Of a stretch of 64,000 bases of DNA, positions 9,584-35,572 are shown piece after piece. Both the position numbers and the translations under genes were made by a program. The stretch is taken from contig OX637404.1 in NCBI GenBank assembly GCA_951799425.1, positions 17,942,045 to 18,006,044 on the forward strand. Direction: 5' to 3'. Positions within the stretch are counted from its first letter, which is position 1. Each line of letters starts with the position of its first letter. The DNA is from Ilex aquifolium. Taxonomy: Eukaryota > Streptophyta > Magnoliopsida > Aquifoliales > Aquifoliaceae. The notes beneath the pieces were generated by a model that was not told the DNA's origin, did no database searches, and saw nothing but the letters and a program-made list of their open reading frames with translations.

Positions 9584-10143
9584 CTTAATCCCTAACCTGG
9601 TGAACCCGACGGCAAACAGCACTAACGTCATCATCGCCGGTGATGACGTCATCAGTCTCCGACCGTGAACACCACCATCTTGATCGATCCTTCATGGGTT
9701 TCTCATTGGTGTACTCCCTTTCTTGTTTTGAGTTCATCTGGTAAGTCTATTGTGCATCGGCTGTTGCTTCTGGTTCGTGTGGATTTCGGTTTCTTGTGAT
9801 CGACTGGTGGCTGGTTGGACTGTTATTTGATGTTGCTGGTCAGGGGTTCGTACAAAGGTTGAAGACGAAGGGTTTCGTCTGGCTTTGGGTTTCGTCTGGT
9901 AGGGTTCGTCCAGAGGTAGAAGACGACTGTTCCGTGTGGGTCCTCTTCTGTCGGGTCGGGTCTTTTGTGTTCTGTTGGTCCAGAGCTGCTTGGTATTTTC
10001 TGTTCTTGGTCTTAGACTGGTTTGGTTGGAGTTTGGCTATTGATTGCTGGTTTGGACTACTGGTCCTCTCTGTCGGTTCAGCTTTTGTGCTCTATCTGGA
10101 TTTATTTTGGGTATTTTTTTTGGTGAGATTTCTTATTAACATT

Positions 10144-13100
10144 ATGACAAGTGGACACTCTGATTCTCTTCAAGCTATTAGTATCATATTAAATGGTGAA
10201 AATTATGTATATTGGTCTTATGTTATGAAGAATTTTCTGTTGGGAAAAGAGATGTGGAGTTATGTTAGTGGTGCTTTGCAAGTTCCAACAGATTCGAAGG
10301 AAGAGAAATATGCTGAATTAAAGAATACCTGGGAAGTCAACTATGCTAAAATTATCACTTGGATTAACAACTCAGTTGATCAGACCATTGGTGTGCATTT
10401 GGCTAAGTTTAACACAACCAAACAGATTTGGGATTATTTAGCTACATTGTTTGTTCAGTCTAATTTTGCAAAGAGATATCAACTTGAGCATGAAATTCGA
10501 GCTGCACGTCAGGGAGATAAGACCATACATGAGTTCTACTCGATTATGACTAGATTTTGGGATCAGTTAGCACTTGTTGAGCCCGCTGAATTGAGTACCC
10601 ATATGGTGTATCGTACTTTTAGGGAGGAGCAGCGGTTGGTTCAGTTTTTGATGGCCCTTAGAGATGACTTTGAAGGTCTTCGTGGTTCTATTCTTCATCG
10701 TCTCCCACTTCCCACAATCGATGCAGTAGTGAATGAGCTTCTCGCTGAAGAAGTCCGTCTTAAGACTCTTTCTGGAAAGGGTCTTCTTCCATTGCCTAAT
10801 CAGACTGTACTGGTTGTACCACCCAGAGGAAATCCTCATTCACAGACTAGATATCGGGGTCGAGCTGCTTCGGATGAGTGTAGTTTTTGTCGTAAGAAGG
10901 GTCACTGGAAGGCTCAATGTCCTAAATTAGTGAACAAGAATGCCAAAGGGGCCTTACAGCAGCCATTTAGGCCCAAAGATCGTCATACAGCCGCAACTGC
11001 TTCACCAGTGGATGAGACACTCCCATCAGCTCCCAGCATGACTATGATAGCTGATCAGTTGCAGAAGCTTCTTTCCCTTCATCAACCAGGTGCCCTATCA
11101 GTTTCTCCTTCCACAGGTTCATTTTCTATAGGACCTTCAGGTATCTCTCGAACTGCCTGGGTCTTTGACTCAGGAGCCACCCATCATATGACTAGTAACT
11201 CTTCCTTATTTGTTTCTATTGTTTCCCCTCCCTCTATATCTGTTCTTGCAGCCAATGGCACCCAAATGTCTTTGGCTGGTGTTGGAACTATCGTGTCTTC
11301 CCAGCTTACACTTCCTGATGTCTACTATATTCCTCAACTTACTTTAAATTTAATATCTGTTAGTCAGTTGTTTGATTCGGGATTCTTAGTCCATTTTTCT
11401 TCTACTGGTTGTGTTGTGCAGGATCCACGGTCCAAGAAGCTGATTGGGACAGGCCATAGAAATGGAGGGCTATATGTGTTGGATGAACTTCATGTTCCTG
11501 AAGTTGTTGCATCTACTGTTGATTTATCTTCTTTTCAATTGAGTCCAAAATCGTCTAGTTTTTATTTATGGCATTCTCGTTTAGGTCATGTTTCTCATTC
11601 TCGTTTAAGATTTCTAGCTTTTACTGGTAGTTTGGGTAGTTTAGAATGTCATGATATTTCAGATTGTAGTGGCTGCAAGTTGGCTAAATTTACTGCATTA
11701 CCTTTCAATAAAAGTAATTCTCGTTCTCTTGCACCTTTTGATCTTGTACATTCTGATATTTGGGGACCAGCTCCTATTGCTACTAAATGAGGGTCTAGAT
11801 ATTATGTTTCTTTTATTGATGATCATACCAGATATTGTTGGGTGTTTCTAATGACACGTAGGTCTGAGTTCTTTTCTATTTTCTCTACCTTTCGTGCCAT
11901 GGTGCGTACTCAATATTCTTCTACCATCAAATGTTTCCGCTGTGATCAAGGTGGACAATATTCTTTTAGTGCTTTTCGTGATTTGTTGAAATCTGATGGT
12001 ACTATTTTTCAGTCTTCTTGTACTGACACACCTGCTCAGAATGGAGTGGCAGAATGAAAACATCGTCACATTATTGAGACAGCTCGTTTTCTGTTGTTGT
12101 CATTCGGTGTTCCTAGCTCTTTTTGGGGAGAAGTAGTTCTTACAGCTGTTCATCTGATTAATTGTATTCCTACAATTCTTAATTCTGGTGTCTCCCCCTT
12201 TGAAAAACTATGTGGTAAGACACCTGACTATTTCTCCTTACGTGTGTTTGGATGTACATGTTTTGTTCTGCTCCCTAGTGTTAATTGTACCAAACTCTCG
12301 GCTCGTTCAACCTTATGTGTCTTTCTTGGCTACGGTGAGGGACAAAAGGGATTTCGGTGTTATGATCCTAGTACACAGAAACTCTATGTCTCTCGCCATG
12401 TTGTTTTTATGGAGCATATTCTTTTTTTCTCTATTCCATCTAGTTCTTCATCTCTGCATAAGTATGATCTTATCTATCTTGATCCCTTTCCCTCTAACGT
12501 TTCTCCTGATTCTTATGTTGGTGATATGACTGTGGCTGATCTTCCCTCCTCTTCTTCTTCCTCCTTGCTTGATTTGTCTGTTACCCGTCCCCCGATTGTG
12601 CATACTTATGTTCGCAGGACTCCCACTGTCTCCTCCATCGATGTTGTGCCTTCATCTGCACCTCTTGGTTCCCAATCAATTTCTGACACCGTGGATCACA
12701 CTCCTCGTTACCCTCAGCGCACTCGGAAGTGTCCTGACAGGTTTGGTTGGTCCAACTCTTGCTATTCTTCTGCTTTTTGTTCTTTCCTAACTTCTATATA
12801 TTCTATGTCTGAACCAACCTCCTATAAGGAGGCTATACTTGATCCTCTTTGGCAATAGGCTATGGATGAGGAGCTTTCTGCGCTACATAAGACTCGAGCT
12901 TGGGAGTTGGTGCCTTTACCTCCTGGTAAACGCCCCATTGGTTGTAAGTGGGTTTATAAAATCAAAACCCAATCTGATGGTTCTGTGGAAAGGTACAAGG
13001 CTAGATTAGTGGCCAAGGGGTTTGCTCAAGAGTATGGGCTTGACTATGGTGAGACCTTTGCTCCAGTGGCTAAGATGACCACGATTCGCACAGTAATTGC

Positions 13101-14340
13101 CGTGGCAACCGTTCGTCAGTGGAGCCTATCCCAGATGGATGTGAAAAATGCTTTTCTTCATGATGATTTGTCTGAAGAGGTCTACATGACTCCTCCTCCT
13201 GGGTTGCCTTGTAGTCCTGGTCATGTGTGCAAACTTCACAAGGCTTTATATGGTCTTACACAGGCCCCGAGGGCATGGTTTGCAAAATTCTCTTCAGTTA
13301 TATGTGACTTAGGCTTCTGTGCTAGTGATCATGATTCTGTTCTCTTCCTTCGATCCATTTCTTCTGGTTTCATACTTCTATTACTTTATGTGGATGACAT
13401 GATTCTTACAGGTGATGACACTGCTGGAATTCAGTTGTTGAAAACTCAGTTACAGGATTATTTTGAGATGAAAGATTTGGGTCCACTTCGATATTTCTTA
13501 GGGATTGAGGTTGCTTCCTCTCCCAAGGGTTATCTTCTTTCTCAGTCAAAATATGCCTCAGATGTTATTCAACGAGCTGGCTTCTCGGATACTCGAACTG
13601 TTGACACACCCTTGGAGCTTAATGTTCATTATACTTCCTCTGATGGTTCTCTTCTGCCTGATCCTACCTTATATCGTACTATTGTTGGGAGTTTGGTGTA
13701 TCTTACTGTTACTCGTCCAGATATTGCTTATGCAGTTCATGTGGTTAGTCAGTTTGTTGCTGCCCCTACCACACTTCACTGGTCTGCTGTTCTTCGAATT
13801 CTTCGATATCTACGGGGAACATTATATCAAAGTTTATTATTTTCTTCTTCTTCATCTCTGGAGCTCCGTGCTTACTCTGATGCGGACTGGGCTGGTGACT
13901 CTATGGATCGCAAATCCACCACTGGTTTTTGTCTATTTCTCGGTGATTCTCTTATTTCTTGGAAAAGCAAGAAACAAACTGTTGTCGCTCGCTCTTCTGC
14001 AGAAGCTGAGTATCGTGCTATGGCATCTACCACAGCAGAGATAGTTTGGTTGCGTTGGTTGCTTGTTGATCTTGGCATTCCCTTGACTACTCCTACTCCT
14101 ATGTATTGTGATAACACCAGTGCTATCCAGATCGCTCATAACTCGGTGTTTCATGAGCGCACAAAACATATAGAGATTGATTGTCACTTTGTGCGCCATC
14201 ATCTTCAGCTGGGCACGATCTCTCTCTCATATCTTCCTTCTACTATGCAGTTGGCCAATTTCTTCACCAAATCTCACACTATTGCACGCTTTCGTTTTCT
14301 CCTTGGCAAACTCTTGATGTTGGATGCTATCACATCATGA
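10144..14340 (+). pseudogene. element D gag-pol polyprotein with three in-frame stops
   Basis: One frame runs from the ATG at 10144 to the TGA at 14338-14340 (1398 codons) without any indel. Order: UBN2-type gag; CCHC knuckle (CSFCRKKGHWKAQC, residue about 246); protease (DSGATHH, about 342); pre-integrase (LWHSRLGHVSHSRL, about 474); integrase (FIDDHTRYCW and the NGVAE segment); reverse transcriptase (YVDDM, about 1082); RNase H (YSDADWAGD to TKHIEIDCHF). Stops interrupt it at 11788-11790 (TGA), 12055-12057 (TGA, where the family has Arg) and 12856-12858 (TAG, after Gln). The copy therefore cannot make full-length pol, although gag plus protease up to residue 548 is intact. The ATG was chosen because the gag homology starts just after it. 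The frame is also open for 116 codons upstream. Confidence 0.9.
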
Positions 14341-24000: not shown

Positions 24001-26946
24001 TTTGCAAATGTAGTGGGTTGAAGTGAAATGCAATCAGCTTTATTTATAAATTGTACATTAAAAAGTAACCGTTTATTTATGACCGTCAGTTGTATAAGTG
24101 GAAAAAGAAAAAATTTTATGACTGTCTCAGCCGCAAAGCTCAGACGGAAGACAGTCAGAGGCGGAAAAGATAAGACACAGACACTGAGACAGTCACAGAC
24201 TCACAGAAGTCCAGACCCCATGTGGATGTGGTGCTCAGTTGAAAAATTTTGAACTCACCTAACTCTCAAATAATTCTCACCTAACTTTCAACATTCAAAT
24301 TCTCACCTGCCATATTCTCACATACTTTTCTTCAACTCTCAAATTCTCAAAATTTGTGGGCGGGTTATTGGGCCGGGTTTCGGTTTTCAGGCCGGGCTTC
24401 GGTTTTCGGGCCTAGTAGTGGGTTTAGTGGTAAACACAAGCCCTTTCTTAAAGGATATTGGGCTCGGGCTTGGGCGGGCCAACTATCGGGTTTCGGACTT
24501 ATTTTTTCTGGGCCGGGTAACGGGACCCGAGGGTAACTCGGCCCATGGACACCCCTACCTTTTACCCTCATCGGTGTTCTCATTATCATTATTCGACTTA
24601 AGAATTTCATTCTAAAAAATATTTTGTGAATGAGATGAAATCATTACGTAAATTAAACAATAAAAATAAAATAAATACTTAAATTATGTAAAAAAATTTA
24701 TCATCAAATGAGAGCACTTGACAATCTTGAGTTTTTGAGACAGCTGAAAGCTCGGTCTTGAGACTTCAGAAGAATCAGAACACATGAGAGTTGTGAATTG
24801 TGAGTTGAGAGCAAATGACTGAATGAGAGTTTTTTTTTTGCAAATGTAGTGTGTTGAAATGAAATGCAATCAGCTTTATTTATAAATTACACATTAAAAA
24901 GTAATCGTTTATTTATGGCCGTTAGTTGTATAAGTGGAGAAAGAAAATTTTTTATAACTGTCTAAGAAATTGGATCAGACGAAAGACAGTCATAGACGGA
25001 AAAGACAAGACACAGACTCTGAGACAATCACAGATTCACAAAAGTCCAAACCCCATGTGGATGTGGTGCTCAATTGAAAAAATTTGAACTCGCCTAACTC
25101 TTAAATAATTCTCACCTAACTTTCAACATTCAAATTCTCACATACCTTTCTTCAATTCTCAAATTTTGTGGGCGGGTTATTGGGCAGGGCTTGGGGCGGG
25201 TTTCGGTCTTTGAGCGGGGTATGTGGGCAGGCTATTGGGCCGGGCTTCGGGCCGGCCAACTATCGGTCCTATCGGGTTTCAGATTTTTTTTTTTTGAGTC
25301 GGGTAACGGGACTTGTGGGTAACCCGGCTCATGGACACCCCTACCATTCACCCTCATCGATGTTCTCATTGTAAATGAGATGAAGTCGTTACGTAAATTA
25401 AACTATAAAAATGAAATAAATACTTAAATTATGTAAAAAAAACTTTTTCACCAAATGAGAGCACTTGACAATGTTGAGTCTTTGAGACAGCTGAAAGCTC
25501 GGTCTTGAGACTTCAGAAGAATCAGAACACTTGAGAGTTGTGAGTTGAGAGCAAATGAGAGTTAAGAGCAAATGACTGAATGAAAGTATGTTTTTTGCAA
25601 ATGTAGTGGTTGAAATGAAATGCAATCAGCTTTATTTATAAATTATACATTAAAAAGTAGTTGTTTATTTATGACTGTTAGTTGTATAAGTGGAGAAAAA
25701 AAAAATTATGACTGTCTCAGCTGCTGGCTCAGACGGAATACAGTCACAGACAGAAAAGACAAGACACAGACACTGAGACAGTTACAGACTCACAGAAGTC
25801 CAGACCCCATGTGGATGTGGTGCTCAGCTGAAAAAATTTGAACTCACCTAACTTTCAACATTCAAATTCTCACCTACCTTTCTTCAACTCTCAAATTCTC
25901 AAATTTTGTGGGCAGGTTATCGGGCAGGCTTGGGTCTTCGGGCCGAGTATATGGGCGGGTTATTTGGCGGGCTTCGGTTTTCGGGCCAGGTTTCGGGCTG
26001 GGTAATGGGTTTAGGGATAAACCCAAGTCCTTTCTTAAAGGATATTGGGCTCGGGCTCAGGCAGGCCAACTATCGGTCCTATCGGGTTTTAGGCTTTTTT
26101 TTTTTGGGTTGGGTAACGGGACCCGTGGGTAACCCGGCCCATGGACACCCCTACCCTTCACCCTCATCGATGTTCTCATTATCATTATTCGACTCAAGAA
26201 TTTCGTTATAAAAAATATTTTGTGAATGAGAAGAATTCATTACGTAAATTAAACTATAAAAATAAAATAAATACTTAAATTATGTATAAAAACTTTCTTA
26301 CCAAATGAGAGCACTTGACAATCTTGAATCTTTGAGAAAGCTGAAAGCTTGGTCTTGAGACTTGAGAAGAATCAGAACACTTGAGAGTTATGACTTGTGA
26401 GTTGAGAGCAAATGACTGAATGAGAGTTTTTTTTGCAAATGTAGTGGATTGAAATGAAATGCAATTAGTTTTATTTATAAATTATACATTAAAAAGTAGC
26501 TATTTATTTATGACCGTTAGTTGTATAAGTGGAGAAAGAAAATTCTTTATGATTGTCTCAGCCGCTGGATCAGACAGAGGACAATCACAGACGGAAAAGA
26601 CAAGATACAGACACTAAGAGAATCACAGAAGTCTAGACCCCATGTGGATGTGGTGCCCAGCTGAAAAAATTTGAACTCACCTAACTCTCAAATAATTCTC
26701 ACCAAACTTTCTACATTCAAATTATCACCTACCTTTCTCCAACCCTCAAATTCTCAAATTTTGTGGGCGGATTATTGGGTCGGGCTTCGATTTTCAGGCC
26801 GGGTAGTGGGTTTAGGGGTAAACCAAAACCCTCTCTTAAAGATATTGGGCACGGGCTCAAGCGGGCCAACTATCGGGTTCGGGTTTATTTTTTTTTGGGT
26901 CGGGTAATGGGACACGTGAGTAACCCGGTCCGTGTACACCCCTAAC

Positions 26947-27875: not shown

Positions 27876-28109
27876 GTTATCACCGTTATTACAGTTATTT
27901 CCTACTGAATTGGCTATTGCCCTGTTAGTTCCAACTGATTTCTTTACTACCACCCCTTGTTCAACCACTACATCTCCATCATCCACCTCATTGGCCTGAC
28001 GGTGCTGATTCTTTTTGAGGTTCTAGGATGCCTTGGGAACCAAATCATCAGATATTTTTCATTTCTTGGATGAATCGTACAACGGTGGATGATTTGAAAT
28101 GATAGAATC
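27876..28109. other. unassigned sequence split by the TR-GAG element
   Basis: This stretch and 31446-31751 formed one locus before the element at 28110 arrived, since GAATC is duplicated at both edges. The minus strand has short coding-like runs (for example NQHRQANEVDDGDVVVEQG), but no family is recognised. Confidence 0.4.
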
Positions 28110-28668
28110 TGATGATACCTAGAAAAAAGCTCTAACTATGAGGTCAGACACAGTAATCAGGGCTCCGCAATCCAGACCTCAAGCTCTCATCAAAGAAATC
28201 AAACGGGAAATTGAAAGGGAAACAACTGGCTAGTGAATGGCATCCTCAAAGCAATGGAAAGCTATAATCAAGGCACAAAACTCTCAACTAACCAAGATCC
28301 TCTCCCAAAAATCAAGGAAGATCCAACGGATGAAGGGCAAAGATCTCGGTGAAAATCCCTTAGAGATAGGAATTACACTATAAATACTGTACAACGCCTC
28401 AATCAAGAGGCAGAGAACCCTACTGGCATCAAAGGCATCTTGTAAAACATTTTCTAGATGAATATAGATTCTAGGAGCAAGAGACTCCATTGAAGAGTGG
28501 ACTAGCCGAGCTCCCAAGCCGGTGAACCATTATATTTCTACGTGTTATACACACCACACCTCGGACAACTAGAGCATTCAACCACCAATTCACGGGCCTT
28601 GTAGCTCAGATCTGTTCCTAGCAATTATACTCTAACTCGCTGCTCATTCATGTGAAATAACACCATCA
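28110..28668 (+). repeat. 5' LTR of TR-GAG element (559 bp)
   Basis: TGATGATACCTAGAAAAAAG to AATAACACCATCA. ACTATAAATACTG at about 28378 is a TATA-like motif. It pairs with 30869-31440. Confidence 0.9.
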
Positions 28669-28671
28669 GTT

Positions 28672-28690
28672 TGGCGCCGTCTGTGGGAAC
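28672..28690 (+). other. primer-binding site of TR-GAG element
   Basis: TGGCGCCGTCTGTGGGAAC, three bases after the LTR end. This is the type of primer site common in plant Gypsy-derived non-autonomous elements. Confidence 0.8.
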
Positions 28691-28730
28691 GACTGTTCCT
28701 GTTACAAATAAGCTGATCTCTCAGTGACTG

Positions 28731-29974
28731 ATGGTATCAACTCGAAACATGAGCAGAAGCCAAACAAACCCACCACGAACACAGGATCAGCAGGAAGCCA
28801 CCAACGGCAGACAACCCGAGAACGTCCAAGAGACTAATTCCCCCATTAACAACGAGATGGAGGCCCTTCGCCTAGTCAACCAACGTTTGCTAAGGGAAAA
28901 CGCAGAGCTATCGAAGCTCATACAATGCCCACAAGAGGCACGACCGGCCCAAGAAGGCCAGAATTATCCCCCTCATAGGGAACAACGACACTTGGACCCC
29001 CTTACAGAGGTCAACGAAGGAGGAGAAAGCAGCCAGACCAGGGGGCATGTTCCCTACCTACCCCCTAGGAATGGCCACAACGAAGAAGTGAAAAGTCATA
29101 ACGATGAGGGCGAGAGGGACGATTTTTTCCCTTACCAGCAGGACATGAGAGAGCAGCACTGGGAGCAACGCTTCAAGGACATCCAGCAAGAGCTCAGCCA
29201 CATGAAGGAAGTTGTAAAGAGCAAGACTCCGGTTACAATGGACGCCCTAGTACAACAGACCGAGTCCCCATTCACCACTGGAGTGCTGCACTTTCCTCTC
29301 CCACCAAAGTTCAGGATGCCACAAATAGAGATCTTTGACGAAATGAAAGATCCCGTAGATCATCTCAACACTTACAAGAACCAGATGGAGCTGCATGGAT
29401 ACCAGGATCCTGTACGTTGCAGAGCTTTTGCCATCACGTTGAAAGACTCTGCCCTAGCCTGGTTTCACAGGCTCCCACCAGCCTCGATCTCATCCTTTAA
29501 AGAGCTCTCCATAGCTTTTGTATCTCATTTCATAGGAGCTCGGACCTACCGAAAGCCGAGCTACCACCTGTTGAATGTAAAACAAGGACCCAACGAGAAC
29601 CTACGGTCTTATGTCCAAAGGTTCAATTCAAAATCCATGAAGGTAGAAATTCCAAATGAGAAGTTTGATATCACTGCTTTCATTGCTGGATTAGGAGTGC
29701 AGTCGAAGGATTTGATATTTTCTATATCAAAGAACCCGCAAGCAAGCGTGGCAGAGGTGCTGGCTAAAGCAGAAAAGTATATTAATGGCGAGGAAGCCCT
29801 TCTCTCAAAGGTAGGGAGCTCATCCTCACAGAAGGAAAAAGTGAAGGAAGAAAATAAGAGGGATCGAAGTCCTAGGAAAGAAAGAGGACGAGATAGGTCC
29901 CCAAGAAGAGACAGAGATCGCTCCCCCAAGAGAAGGGAAAATGTCAGAGAACTAGACGAGCTCTTCAGCTCATG
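28731..29974 (+). CDS. gag: gag protein of TR-GAG element, intact
   Basis: An uninterrupted 414-residue frame from the ATG at 28731, the first in the element. Residues about 41-63 (MEALRLVNQRLLRENAELSK) form a likely coiled coil. Residues about 195-330 are a retrotransposon gag (PF03732-like) region with FDEMKDPVDHLNTY, AFAITLKDSALAWFHRLP, FVSHFIGA, LRSYVQRFN and FIAGL. The C-terminal 40 residues are an Arg/Ser/Asp-rich tail with repeated RDRSPRR motifs, likely RNA-binding in place of a zinc knuckle, which is absent. The stop codon lies inside the first unit of the hairpin minisatellite. The protein would form the particle shell and bind the element's RNA. The open frame suggests recent selection or a young copy. 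Confidence 0.88.
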
Positions 29975-30584
29975 AACATCCGATGAGCTCTTCAGCTCAT
30001 AAACTCAAGATGAGCTCTTCAGCTCATAAACATCCGATGAGCTCTTCAGCTCATGAACTCAAGATAAGCTCTTCAGCTCATAAACTCAAGATGAGCTCTT
30101 CAGCTCATAAACATCCAATAAGCTCTTCAGCTCATAAATTTAAGATGAGTTCTTCAGCTCATGAACTCAAGATAAGCTCTTCAGCTCATAAACATCCGAT
30201 GAGCTCTTCAGCTCATAAATTCAAGATGAGCTCTTCAGTTCATAACTTGAGCCAAGCAGCTCACGATGAACTCTTCAGTTCATAACTTGAGCCACGCAGC
30301 TCACGATGAACTCTTCAGTTCATAACTTGAGCCACGCAGCTCACGATGAACTATTCAGTTCATAACTTGAGCCAAGCAGCTCACGATGAACTCTTCAGTT
30401 CATAACTTGAGCCACGCAGCTCACGATGAACTATTCAGTTCATAACTTGAGCCAAGCAGCTCACGCTGAACTCTTCAGCTCATAATATGAGCCACGTAGC
30501 TCGCGCTGAACTATTCAGTTCATGATATGAGCAACACAGCCCACGAAGAACTCCAATAGTTCAGAAAAGAGCCTAGGAGCTCGG
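29955..30584 (+). repeat. hairpin minisatellite behind gag (10 x 27 bp, then about 9 x 40 bp)
   Basis: Ten 27-bp units (29955-30224) contain GATGAGCTCTTCAGCTCAT, in which TGAGCT and AGCTCA pair around a CTTC loop. From 30225 the unit grows to 40 bp. The stem becomes TGAACT/AGTTCA, and a second small hairpin (TGAGC, six-base loop, GCTCA) is added. Units after 30545 decay, yet GAACT/AGTTC and GAGC/GCTC arms can still be found. The array overlaps the end of gag. Its 27-bp period keeps one forward frame open as a nine-residue repeat (SSSAHKLKM type), which is probably incidental. Confidence 0.88.
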
Positions 30585-30833
30585 AATGGGCTATTTAATT
30601 CCTAAAAAGAGCCGTGTAGCTCATGATGAGTTCCCTAGTTCATAAAAAAAAAAAAAAAATCCGGCAGCTCATAAAGTCAATAATTTTGCTTTAAGAAGCA
30701 CTTCTCGAAGCAATGGGAACAACTAGGAACTCGGCAACCGTAGGAAAAGCTGCAGCTCTCTGCACCTCGAGCTCATGCAAATCGAGGTCGATGTGTGGAA
30801 GTCTATCTCAATTCAGCATCGACTCAGCCCCTG

Positions 30834-30849
30834 CCCAAGCTCGCTTGGG
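30834..30849 (+). other. inverted repeat before the polypurine tract
   Basis: CCCAAGCTCGCTTGGG pairs over seven bases with a two-base loop, about 20 bp before the 3' LTR. The purine-rich AAGGGCTGGGGGGCAAC (30852-30868) follows and is the likely plus-strand primer. Confidence 0.6.
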
Positions 30850-30868
30850 CCAAGGGCTGGGGGGCAAC

Positions 30869-31440
30869 TGATGATACCTAGAAAAAAGCTCTAACTATGA
30901 GGTCAGACAAGGAGGTCAGACACAGTAACCAGGGCTCCGCAATCCAGACCTCAAGCTCTCATCAAAGAAAACAAACGGGAAATTGAAAGGGAAACAACTG
31001 GCTAGTGAATGGCATCCTCAAAGCAATGGAAAGCTATAATCAAGGCACAAAACTCTCAACTAACCAAGATCCTCTCCCAAAAATCAAGGAAGATCCCACG
31101 GATGAAGGGCAAAGATCTCGGTGAAAATCCCTTAGAGATAGGAATTACACTATAAATACTGTACAACGCCTCAATCAAGAGGCAGAGAACCCTACTGGCA
31201 TCAAAGGCATCTTGTAAAATATTTTCTAGATGAATATAGATTCTAGGAGCAAAAGACTCCATTGAAGAGTAGACTAGCCGAGCTCCCAAGCCGGTGAACC
31301 ACTATATTTCTACGTGTTACACACACCACACCTCGGACAACTAGAGCATTCAACCACCAATTCACGGGCCTTGTAGCTCAGATCTGTTCCTAGCAATTAT
31401 ACTCTAACTCGCTGCTCATTCACGTGAAATAACACCATCA
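30869..31440 (+). repeat. 3' LTR of TR-GAG element (572 bp)
   Basis: Matches the 5' LTR apart from nine substitutions and a 13-bp tandem duplication near 30905. It is followed by the second GAATC. Confidence 0.9.
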
Positions 31441-31445
31441 GAATC

Positions 31446-31751
31446 AGTAGGAGGTGTGCTAGGGACAATGGTTATGGGGGATTTGTTGCTCAAAGAGGTA
31501 GAACTATTGTTGATTAATTCTTGGTCCTGGTCTTGGTCTTAAGCCCACCATGAATCGCCATTGATATCTCTAGAGTTGAGTTGTACGGATCATCGATGAA
31601 TTATGGAAGGTATAGTAGTGAACCCTCTAACCAATCTAATATGTGATCTAAGGTGGGGTTTGAATGGTCATTGTGTGTTGTGGGGGAGAGAGAAAGGAGG
31701 GGAGAGGGGGAAGCTATGGTATGGTGTTTGATCATTAACCAAAGATAAGGT
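31446..31751. other. spacer between two LTR elements
   Basis: This continues the locus interrupted at 28109. It contains a purine-rich GGGGGAGAGAGAAAGGAGGGG run (31683-31703). No gene is recognised. Confidence 0.4.
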
Positions 31752-35174: not shown

Positions 35175-35572
35175 ACCTACCGGAAGGTGTGTGTCGGCCT
35201 TCCGGAAGGTTTTGCTAAAAACCCCAGCTTGCCTTGTTCACAGCTAATACCTTCCGGAAGGTTTTGCCCACTGGAATGAACCTTCCGAAAGATTTTAGCT
35301 ACTGGAGTAAAACCTACCGGAAGGACTTGTCTACTGGAATGGACCTTCCGGAAGGTTTTGCCTTGGGTTTCTTTTTGACTGCCGAATTCTTCCGGAAGGT
35401 TTTGTTTTCTGGAATGAACCTTCCGGAAGGTTTTGGCTACTAGAATGGACCTTCCGGAAGGTTTTTGCTATTGATGTAGACCTTCCGGAAGTTCTTGAAA
35501 TTGATTCTTTTCATTTAACTGTTCTTTCAGCGACCTTCCGGTAGGTGTATGTCGACCTTCCGGAAGGTTTTT
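35175..35572 (+). repeat. array of CCTTCCGGAAGG palindromes
   Basis: About 12 copies of AACCTTCCGGAAGGTTTTG or close variants lie in 400 bp, 30-50 bp apart, separated by short sequences such as CTACTGGAATGG. Most copies keep the full 12-base palindrome. Exceptions are one-sided changes such as CCTACCGG and CCGGTAGG. The first and last pairs share the same dimer arrangement. Confidence 0.85.

Follow-up and report, generated by a model that had tools for sequence, protein, structure and literature searches.

A hairpin-unit array behind gag in a pol-less LTR retrotransposon of Ilex aquifolium: a probable Retand/Tat-type repeat tail

The window analysed here is a stretch of 64,000 nt of Ilex aquifolium (contig OX637404.1 of assembly GCA_951799425.1, positions 17,942,045-18,006,044, forward strand), and positions are those of the window unless another sequence is named. 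At 28110-31440 it carries an LTR retrotransposon of which both ends are present, with two LTRs, a target site duplication (TSD), a primer binding site (PBS) and a polypurine tract (PPT) (Table 1). The LTRs differ by 9 mismatches over 560 aligned sites (a proportion of 0.016) and by one 13-nt indel. The original prediction called the element gag-only, and the ORF list bears this out: within 28110-31440 no ORF of at least 150 aa other than gag was found on the sense or the antisense strand. The element therefore presumably moves in trans. The gag stop codon falls inside the first unit of a tandem array of 27- and 40-bp hairpin units, which follows directly 3' of gag and extends towards the PPT. 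Just before the PPT stands an inverted repeat whose arms are perfect over 8 bp in 59 of the 75 places where the fetched loci have the PPT core exactly, and whose 2-nt spacer exists in several different versions. Genome-wide (800 Mb) the LTR-PBS junction occurs 1875 + 1869 times at up to 2 mismatches and the PPT-LTR junction 694 + 683 times at up to 3. Rfam gave no match to a known RNA family at the gathering score in 28100-31450.

Table 1. Features of the gag-only element in window coordinates
Feature	Position	Strand	Basis or remark
Target site duplication GAATC, left copy	28105..28109	+	Direct sequence reading; right copy 31441-31445
5' LTR (TGATGATACC...CATCA), 559 bp	28110..28668	+	Aligned to 3' LTR
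Primer binding site TGGCGCCGTCTGTGGGAA, assigned by position	28672..28689	+	3 bases past 5' LTR
gag ORF, C-terminus ..DELFSS*	28731..29975	+	ORF list; PF03732 Retrotrans_gag, E 2e-15
Ten 27-bp class-A units, hairpin TGAGCT-CTTC-AGCTCA, 5/10 perfect	29955..30224	+	
A/B junction unit TGAGCT..AGTTCA, G-T pair	30225..30264	+	
Five 40-bp class-B units, two hairpins: TGAACT-NTTC-AGTTCA and TGAGC-N6-GCTCA	30265..30464	+	
Diverged end units U6, U5, U4, U3, U1, recognisable in other copies	30465..30646	+	
8-bp inverted repeat GCCCAAGC-NN-GCTTGGGC, just 5' of PPT	30833..30850	+	
Polypurine tract region, 5' of 3' LTR	30853..30868	+	Direct sequence reading
3' LTR, 572 bp	30869..31440	+	Sequence comparison with 5' LTR

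Outside the element the window contains a tandem repeat of 31 bp that includes palindromes of the CCTTCCGGAAGG type (35233-35491), two to three tandem copies of a unit of about 0.75-0.85 kb upstream of the element (24500-26750), and three ORFs on a single strand (681, 266 and 493 aa; 9745-14340), which on reading resemble a Copia gag-pol.

The array opens with ten 27-bp units, as had been predicted, but they do not all carry TGAGCT-CTTC-AGCTCA; the hairpin is perfect only at 29982, 30009, 30036, 30090 and 30198. An A·C-type mismatch is present in 4 of the 10, as TAAGCT..AGCTCA (A-C) at 30063, 30117 and 30171 and as CGAGCT..AGCTCA (C-A) at 29955, whereas the earlier description named only the wobble units at 30144 and 30225. 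The first of these indeed reads TGAGTT..AGCTCA (T·G). The variation of the loop among units and the 40-bp units that combine TGAACT..AGTTCA with the second hairpin TGAGC-N6-GCTCA were likewise seen in the sequence. Towards the end of the array the stems are partly broken, by A-C in U6 and by G-U and A-C in U3, and the 40-bp end unit at 30465 (TGAACT..AGCTCA) is A-C as well. The unit at 30225 does join TGAGCT to AGTTCA. Its status as a proven wobble intermediate was not upheld, because it can equally be the junction of class A and class B: in 74 arrays the junction is G·T in 30, A·T in 42 and G·C in 2. G·T units also amplify, since 61 of 90 of them sit away from the A/B junction.

Copies of the element were collected elsewhere in the genome in two ways. 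The 40 best matches to an array query (L009-L048, the last being the window's own copy) all contain the array by construction, as they were chosen by it. A gag like that of the window was found in 32 of them, and in 18 of these 32 the ORF, counted from stop to stop, reaches 408 aa or more. In eight loci (L019, L024, L028-L032 and L035) nothing matched the gag or the LTR of the window over the roughly 2.5 kb covered before the array; they have the array, the stretch behind it and the PPT in common with the window. The sense-strand ORFs of L019, L024 and L029 contained no gag in the stretch covered, where gag could sit further upstream, and in L019 and L029 antisense ORFs are found upstream of the array in place of gag. 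The second set was chosen by the PPT and blind to the array (the first 40, in list order, of 70 listed new places; 1,377 PPT-LTR junctions were counted). The expected recurrence of the array in other copies was seen in 37 of these 40, within 1.7 kb before the PPT, and not in three (L063, L066 and L072). In these three the array may sit beyond 1.7 kb, because the array of the reverse transcriptase (RT)-bearing relative described below lies upstream of antisense ORFs. Over both sets an array was present before the PPT in 77 of the 80 loci covered. The units that passed the filter numbered 1-21 per array for class A and 3-27 for class B in 75 arrays, L050 and L088 being excluded from this range as their arrays continue past the end of the sequence fetched. 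Of 25 copies whose two LTRs were compared, 2 have identical ones, which indicates that the family has moved recently.

A second unit type, A2 (TAAGCT-TCAA-AGCTTA), occurs at 2964 + 3069 places genome-wide at up to 1 mismatch. Among 100 places listed, 20 A2 clusters were found on C1, of which 7 begin 5.61-5.70 kb past a same-strand PBS among those listed; for one further cluster the distance is 4.2 kb. The relative with its PBS at C1:6523205 is known from three 1-kb slices (RT, array and downstream). It has an exact LTR-PBS junction and, in a slice of 1,001 bases, an open 333-aa reverse-transcriptase frame (RVT_1, PF00078, E 5.6e-33), which by its motif we take to be of Ty3-gypsy type. None of the 16 C1 matches among the 150 listed in a search with PF00078 fell, by eye, inside the 100 PBS elements listed. 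The array of the relative lies about 2.2 kb past the RT slice and consists of 54-bp dimers in which TGAGCT-CTTC-AGCTCA alternates with the A2 hairpin (L090 1-690, C1:6528800-6529489); the 3' LTR lies beyond the slices covered. In L090 the second-type units have G-T at the changed pair in 3 of 12 before the degenerate end. The downstream slice contains antisense ORFs and no PPT. A relative with RT and a similar array fits the mobilisation in trans that is supposed for the gag-only copies.

Two antisense ORFs of this slice gave no match to Transposase_28. Such matches were obtained in the antisense ORF of L063 (385-1485; E 2.2e-9, above the cut-off) and in that of L029 (862-1512; E 4.2e-4, below it). 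According to a 2025 Retand survey (PMC11963269), about half of the recently active Retand elements have a tandem array that lies between pol and the 3' LTR. The survey also describes antisense Transposase_28 ORFs in Retand elements and predicts that this domain binds DNA. Tandem arrays are also described in the text available of PMC7004042 for pol-deleted Ogre elements. The position of a tandem array past pol and before the 3' LTR, which is described for Retand/Tat, recurs in the array of the relative and, before the PPT, in the 77 loci. The array in the window is probably the tail, made of hypervariable tandem repeats, that belongs to a Retand/Tat-type element of Ty3-gypsy, carried here by a young pol-less, gag-only derivative; the assignment is by array position, with the Transposase_28 match of L063 in its favour.

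The original prediction held that both arms of the hairpins had changed together and took this to suggest that a folded RNA, or a DNA palindrome, is maintained. Change within unit classes was followed in 1,799 units of 77 arrays, all of them free of inserted bases and of gaps (up to 5 in U1) and no more than 6 differences away from a class. U4 was excluded from the unit counts and its first hairpin, which has a 5-nt loop, from the alignment of unit types; L063, L066 and L072 were also excluded. Loci with more than 80% of their units in common were treated as one cluster, which gave 67 clusters from 77 loci, and 31 from 40 for the set of private haplotypes. In the stem pairs of 1,518 units (594 of class A and 924 of class B) 746 cells showed a one-sided change versus 11 a two-sided one, so that within a class the arms seldom change together. 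The first hairpin contains a mismatch or a wobble in 168 of the 594 class A units and in 399 of the 924 class B units.

These counts bear on the proposal that the array is a series of multivalent hairpins selected, as folded RNA, to serve as the packaging or dimerisation signal of a trans-mobilised RNA. The RNA of a gag-only element would have to be packaged with pol, and similar arrays are present in gag-only copies and in the RT-bearing relative, as this proposal would have it. However, one-sided changes dominate, and the distinct variants have no preference for G·U over A·C (24:24 overall and 14:14 among those shared). Shared changes away from Watson-Crick, present in three or more clusters, comprised 14 to G·U, 14 to A·C and 11 to other mismatches. 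Stem and non-stem columns varied alike, the ratio of stem to non-stem variants being 37:31 for those in a single cluster versus 43:42 for those in three or more (Fisher p 0.74; 67 clusters). Selection on RNA folding did not emerge from these comparisons. Counts of cells are uneven, with A·C:G·U at 133:28 in class A and G·U:A·C at 352:99 in class B.

The most recent changes were read from 137 private haplotypes, each at most 2 substitutions from a haplotype present in at least 3 of 31 clusters. They contain 91 stem changes: 81 losses of a Watson-Crick pair (35 gave G·U, 28 gave A·C and 18 gave another mismatch), 7 one-sided restorations to Watson-Crick (from A·C or G·U) and 3 from A·C to another mismatch. 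A two-sided change was found in none of the 137. This implies that template switching is not frequent now. By quasi-palindrome correction, in reverse transcription or in replication, such switching would copy one arm onto the other and so make or tidy hairpins free of any function. It is a mechanism published for RNA genes (PMC8794818), and it would suit the difference between A and A2 units, which disagree in the whole 4-nt loop and in both partners of one pair, the other arm bases being equal. Against the absence of two-sided changes in the private haplotypes we regard template switching as an unlikely source of the two-sided differences, albeit one compatible with the explanation preferred below.

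Of the private changes 124 of 171 are transitions, including 55 C>T and 36 G>A. A Watson-Crick pair of which each base undergoes a transition is always a Watson-Crick pair afterwards, and matching changes in the two arms therefore prove little. Compensation would show only as a shortage of one-sided states, and within classes there is no such shortage. Double transitions in class A numbered 1 in paired columns versus 1.6 expected, and 13 versus 18 in unpaired stem columns. In class B they numbered 6 versus 2.8 expected in paired columns and 44 versus 70 in unpaired stem columns, in five clusters; this result leans towards pairing being favoured and counts against a reading by drift. The sense strand of the array folds better than 20 of 20 dinucleotide shuffles (z -9.4). 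The antisense strand also beats its shuffles (z -12.4), with a lower energy than the sense strand. A good fold is expected because the array consists of palindromes, and with the antisense strand folding better the z-scores were rejected as proof of selection. The argument for RNA maintenance from the array is weak.

At the oldest level 15 aligned hairpins standing for the unit types were compared, the structure being chosen from these same sequences and ancestry being uncorrected. With a mean diversity of 0.24 the 4-bp core of the dyad varied less than the loop (0.68) and the flanks (0.47), and less than random columns (permutation p 0.005), which counts against drift. Two-sided changes were present in three pairs, a number reached by 21 of 500 shuffles. 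Only 4 of 500 shuffles attain the observed covariation score, 0.260, and the number of two-sided cells, which also counts against drift. When the structure was slid by +1 column the score was still 0.210, with two two-sided pairs. No single pair was significant over the 15 unit types (best 0.07, 0.08 and 0.25), and the A·T state of one pair, common to three unit types, may be one event. The covariation is thus seen as an excess over shuffles, tempered by the slid control and by the uncorrected ancestry; the excess of compensatory change is weak and appears only across old unit types. The conserved core and the covariation favour the folded-RNA signal, whereas the score of the slid control stands against it along with the one-sided changes, the absent G·U preference, the many imperfect first hairpins and the better fold of the antisense strand. 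On this balance we consider it quite improbable.

The same alignment can be read for a dyad that need not fold at all. GAGC-N6-GCTC and its variants would then be a putative pair of half-sites for a dimeric protein that binds DNA or RNA, for example the antisense-encoded Transposase_28 of Retand elements, and the multiplicity of the sites would matter rather than their folding. Sixteen hairpin types were considered, of which 15 have the N6 spacing, and the 7 second-hairpin types keep GAGC in 7 of 7 and GCTC in 6 of 7. A Transposase_28 ORF is present in L063, and the domain is predicted to be DNA-binding in the portion of PMC11963269 that was available. On the other hand A2 (AAGC..GCTT) and the first hairpins of class B (GAAC..GTTC) alter the half-site, and L063, which has the best Transposase_28 match, is without an array in the 1.7 kb before its PPT. 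A half-site function seems very unlikely.

The reading that best accommodates these observations is that a repeat tail of an already known kind descends from a founder dyad that has been amplified and is drifting. Further gag-only copies carry such an array, as do copies that have antisense ORFs upstream in place of gag, and the RT-bearing relative has one past its RT. Copies differ in how many units they have, the unit types diverged long ago, and the changes that individual units gather are mostly one-sided. Slippage or template switching during reverse transcription, or else unequal exchange, would make the arrays longer or shorter, and RT-bearing relatives would supply the pol that replicates the gag-only RNA. 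A founder palindrome, which may itself promote template switching, would be the source of the small dyad that the unit types share. The two-sided differences of the arms set old unit types apart and do not require compensation as their cause.

Several known systems resemble this tail. Macas et al. (2009, in Gene) are cited on such arrays in the Retand literature, and Chaparro et al. (2015) in that on TR-GAG elements. From the parts available of PMC7004042 and PMC11963269, the arrays of Retand/Tat elements, including pol-deleted Ogre, lie before the 3' LTR and consist of short, family-specific units in variable number, and in Ogre the array is retained in a pol-deleted derivative (PMC7004042). 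Unlike these, the holly units are small dyads, with at least two dyad types within one array. In a word search of the accessible text 'hairpin' occurs in neither paper, 'secondary structure' does not occur in PMC11963269, and 'palindrom' occurs not at all in PMC7004042 and twice in PMC11963269, the place displayed being the title of a reference. Among the best-ranked literature matches, in part the first 20 of 323, 12 of 1,103 and 10 of 274 and judged by title and opening of the abstract, no description of hairpin-unit arrays in Retand elements was found. TR-GAG elements, as described in the available part of PMC8704663, share with the window element two LTRs and one GAG ORF without pol, and the TSD, PBS and PPT of a TR-GAG are present here too. 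The moving example given there belongs to a COPIA subfamily, unlike the window element with its PF03732 gag, its relative with an RT of apparent Ty3-gypsy type, and its hairpin array that begins at the gag stop. The linker of Sireviruses (PMC2829016) likewise combines repeats that precede the 3' LTR with an inverted repeat located at the PPT; however, Sireviruses are Ty1/copia elements, their inverted repeat spans the PPT/LTR junction and their repeats are copies of the PPT.

In the accessible text of the Retand survey (PMC11963269) the origin and function of the repeat arrays are still given as unknown. The holly family supplies units by the thousand from a single genome, A2 alone accounting for the places counted above, and old constraint is separable from recent drift because old unit types coexist with young copies. 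It also illustrates a trap, in that a transition-rich array makes matching changes in two arms look compensatory even in the absence of selection for pairing. One wider proposal is that the multivalent array of dyads or hairpins is a common cis-signal by which the RT-bearing Retand family mobilises its gag-only and other incomplete relatives. The redundancy of the array would let single units decay, and constraint would therefore show only when old unit types are compared and not inside an array; we regard this as quite unlikely. Whether as RNA fold, as binding site or as substrate for template switching, any function of the dyad would need to tolerate many broken units per array.
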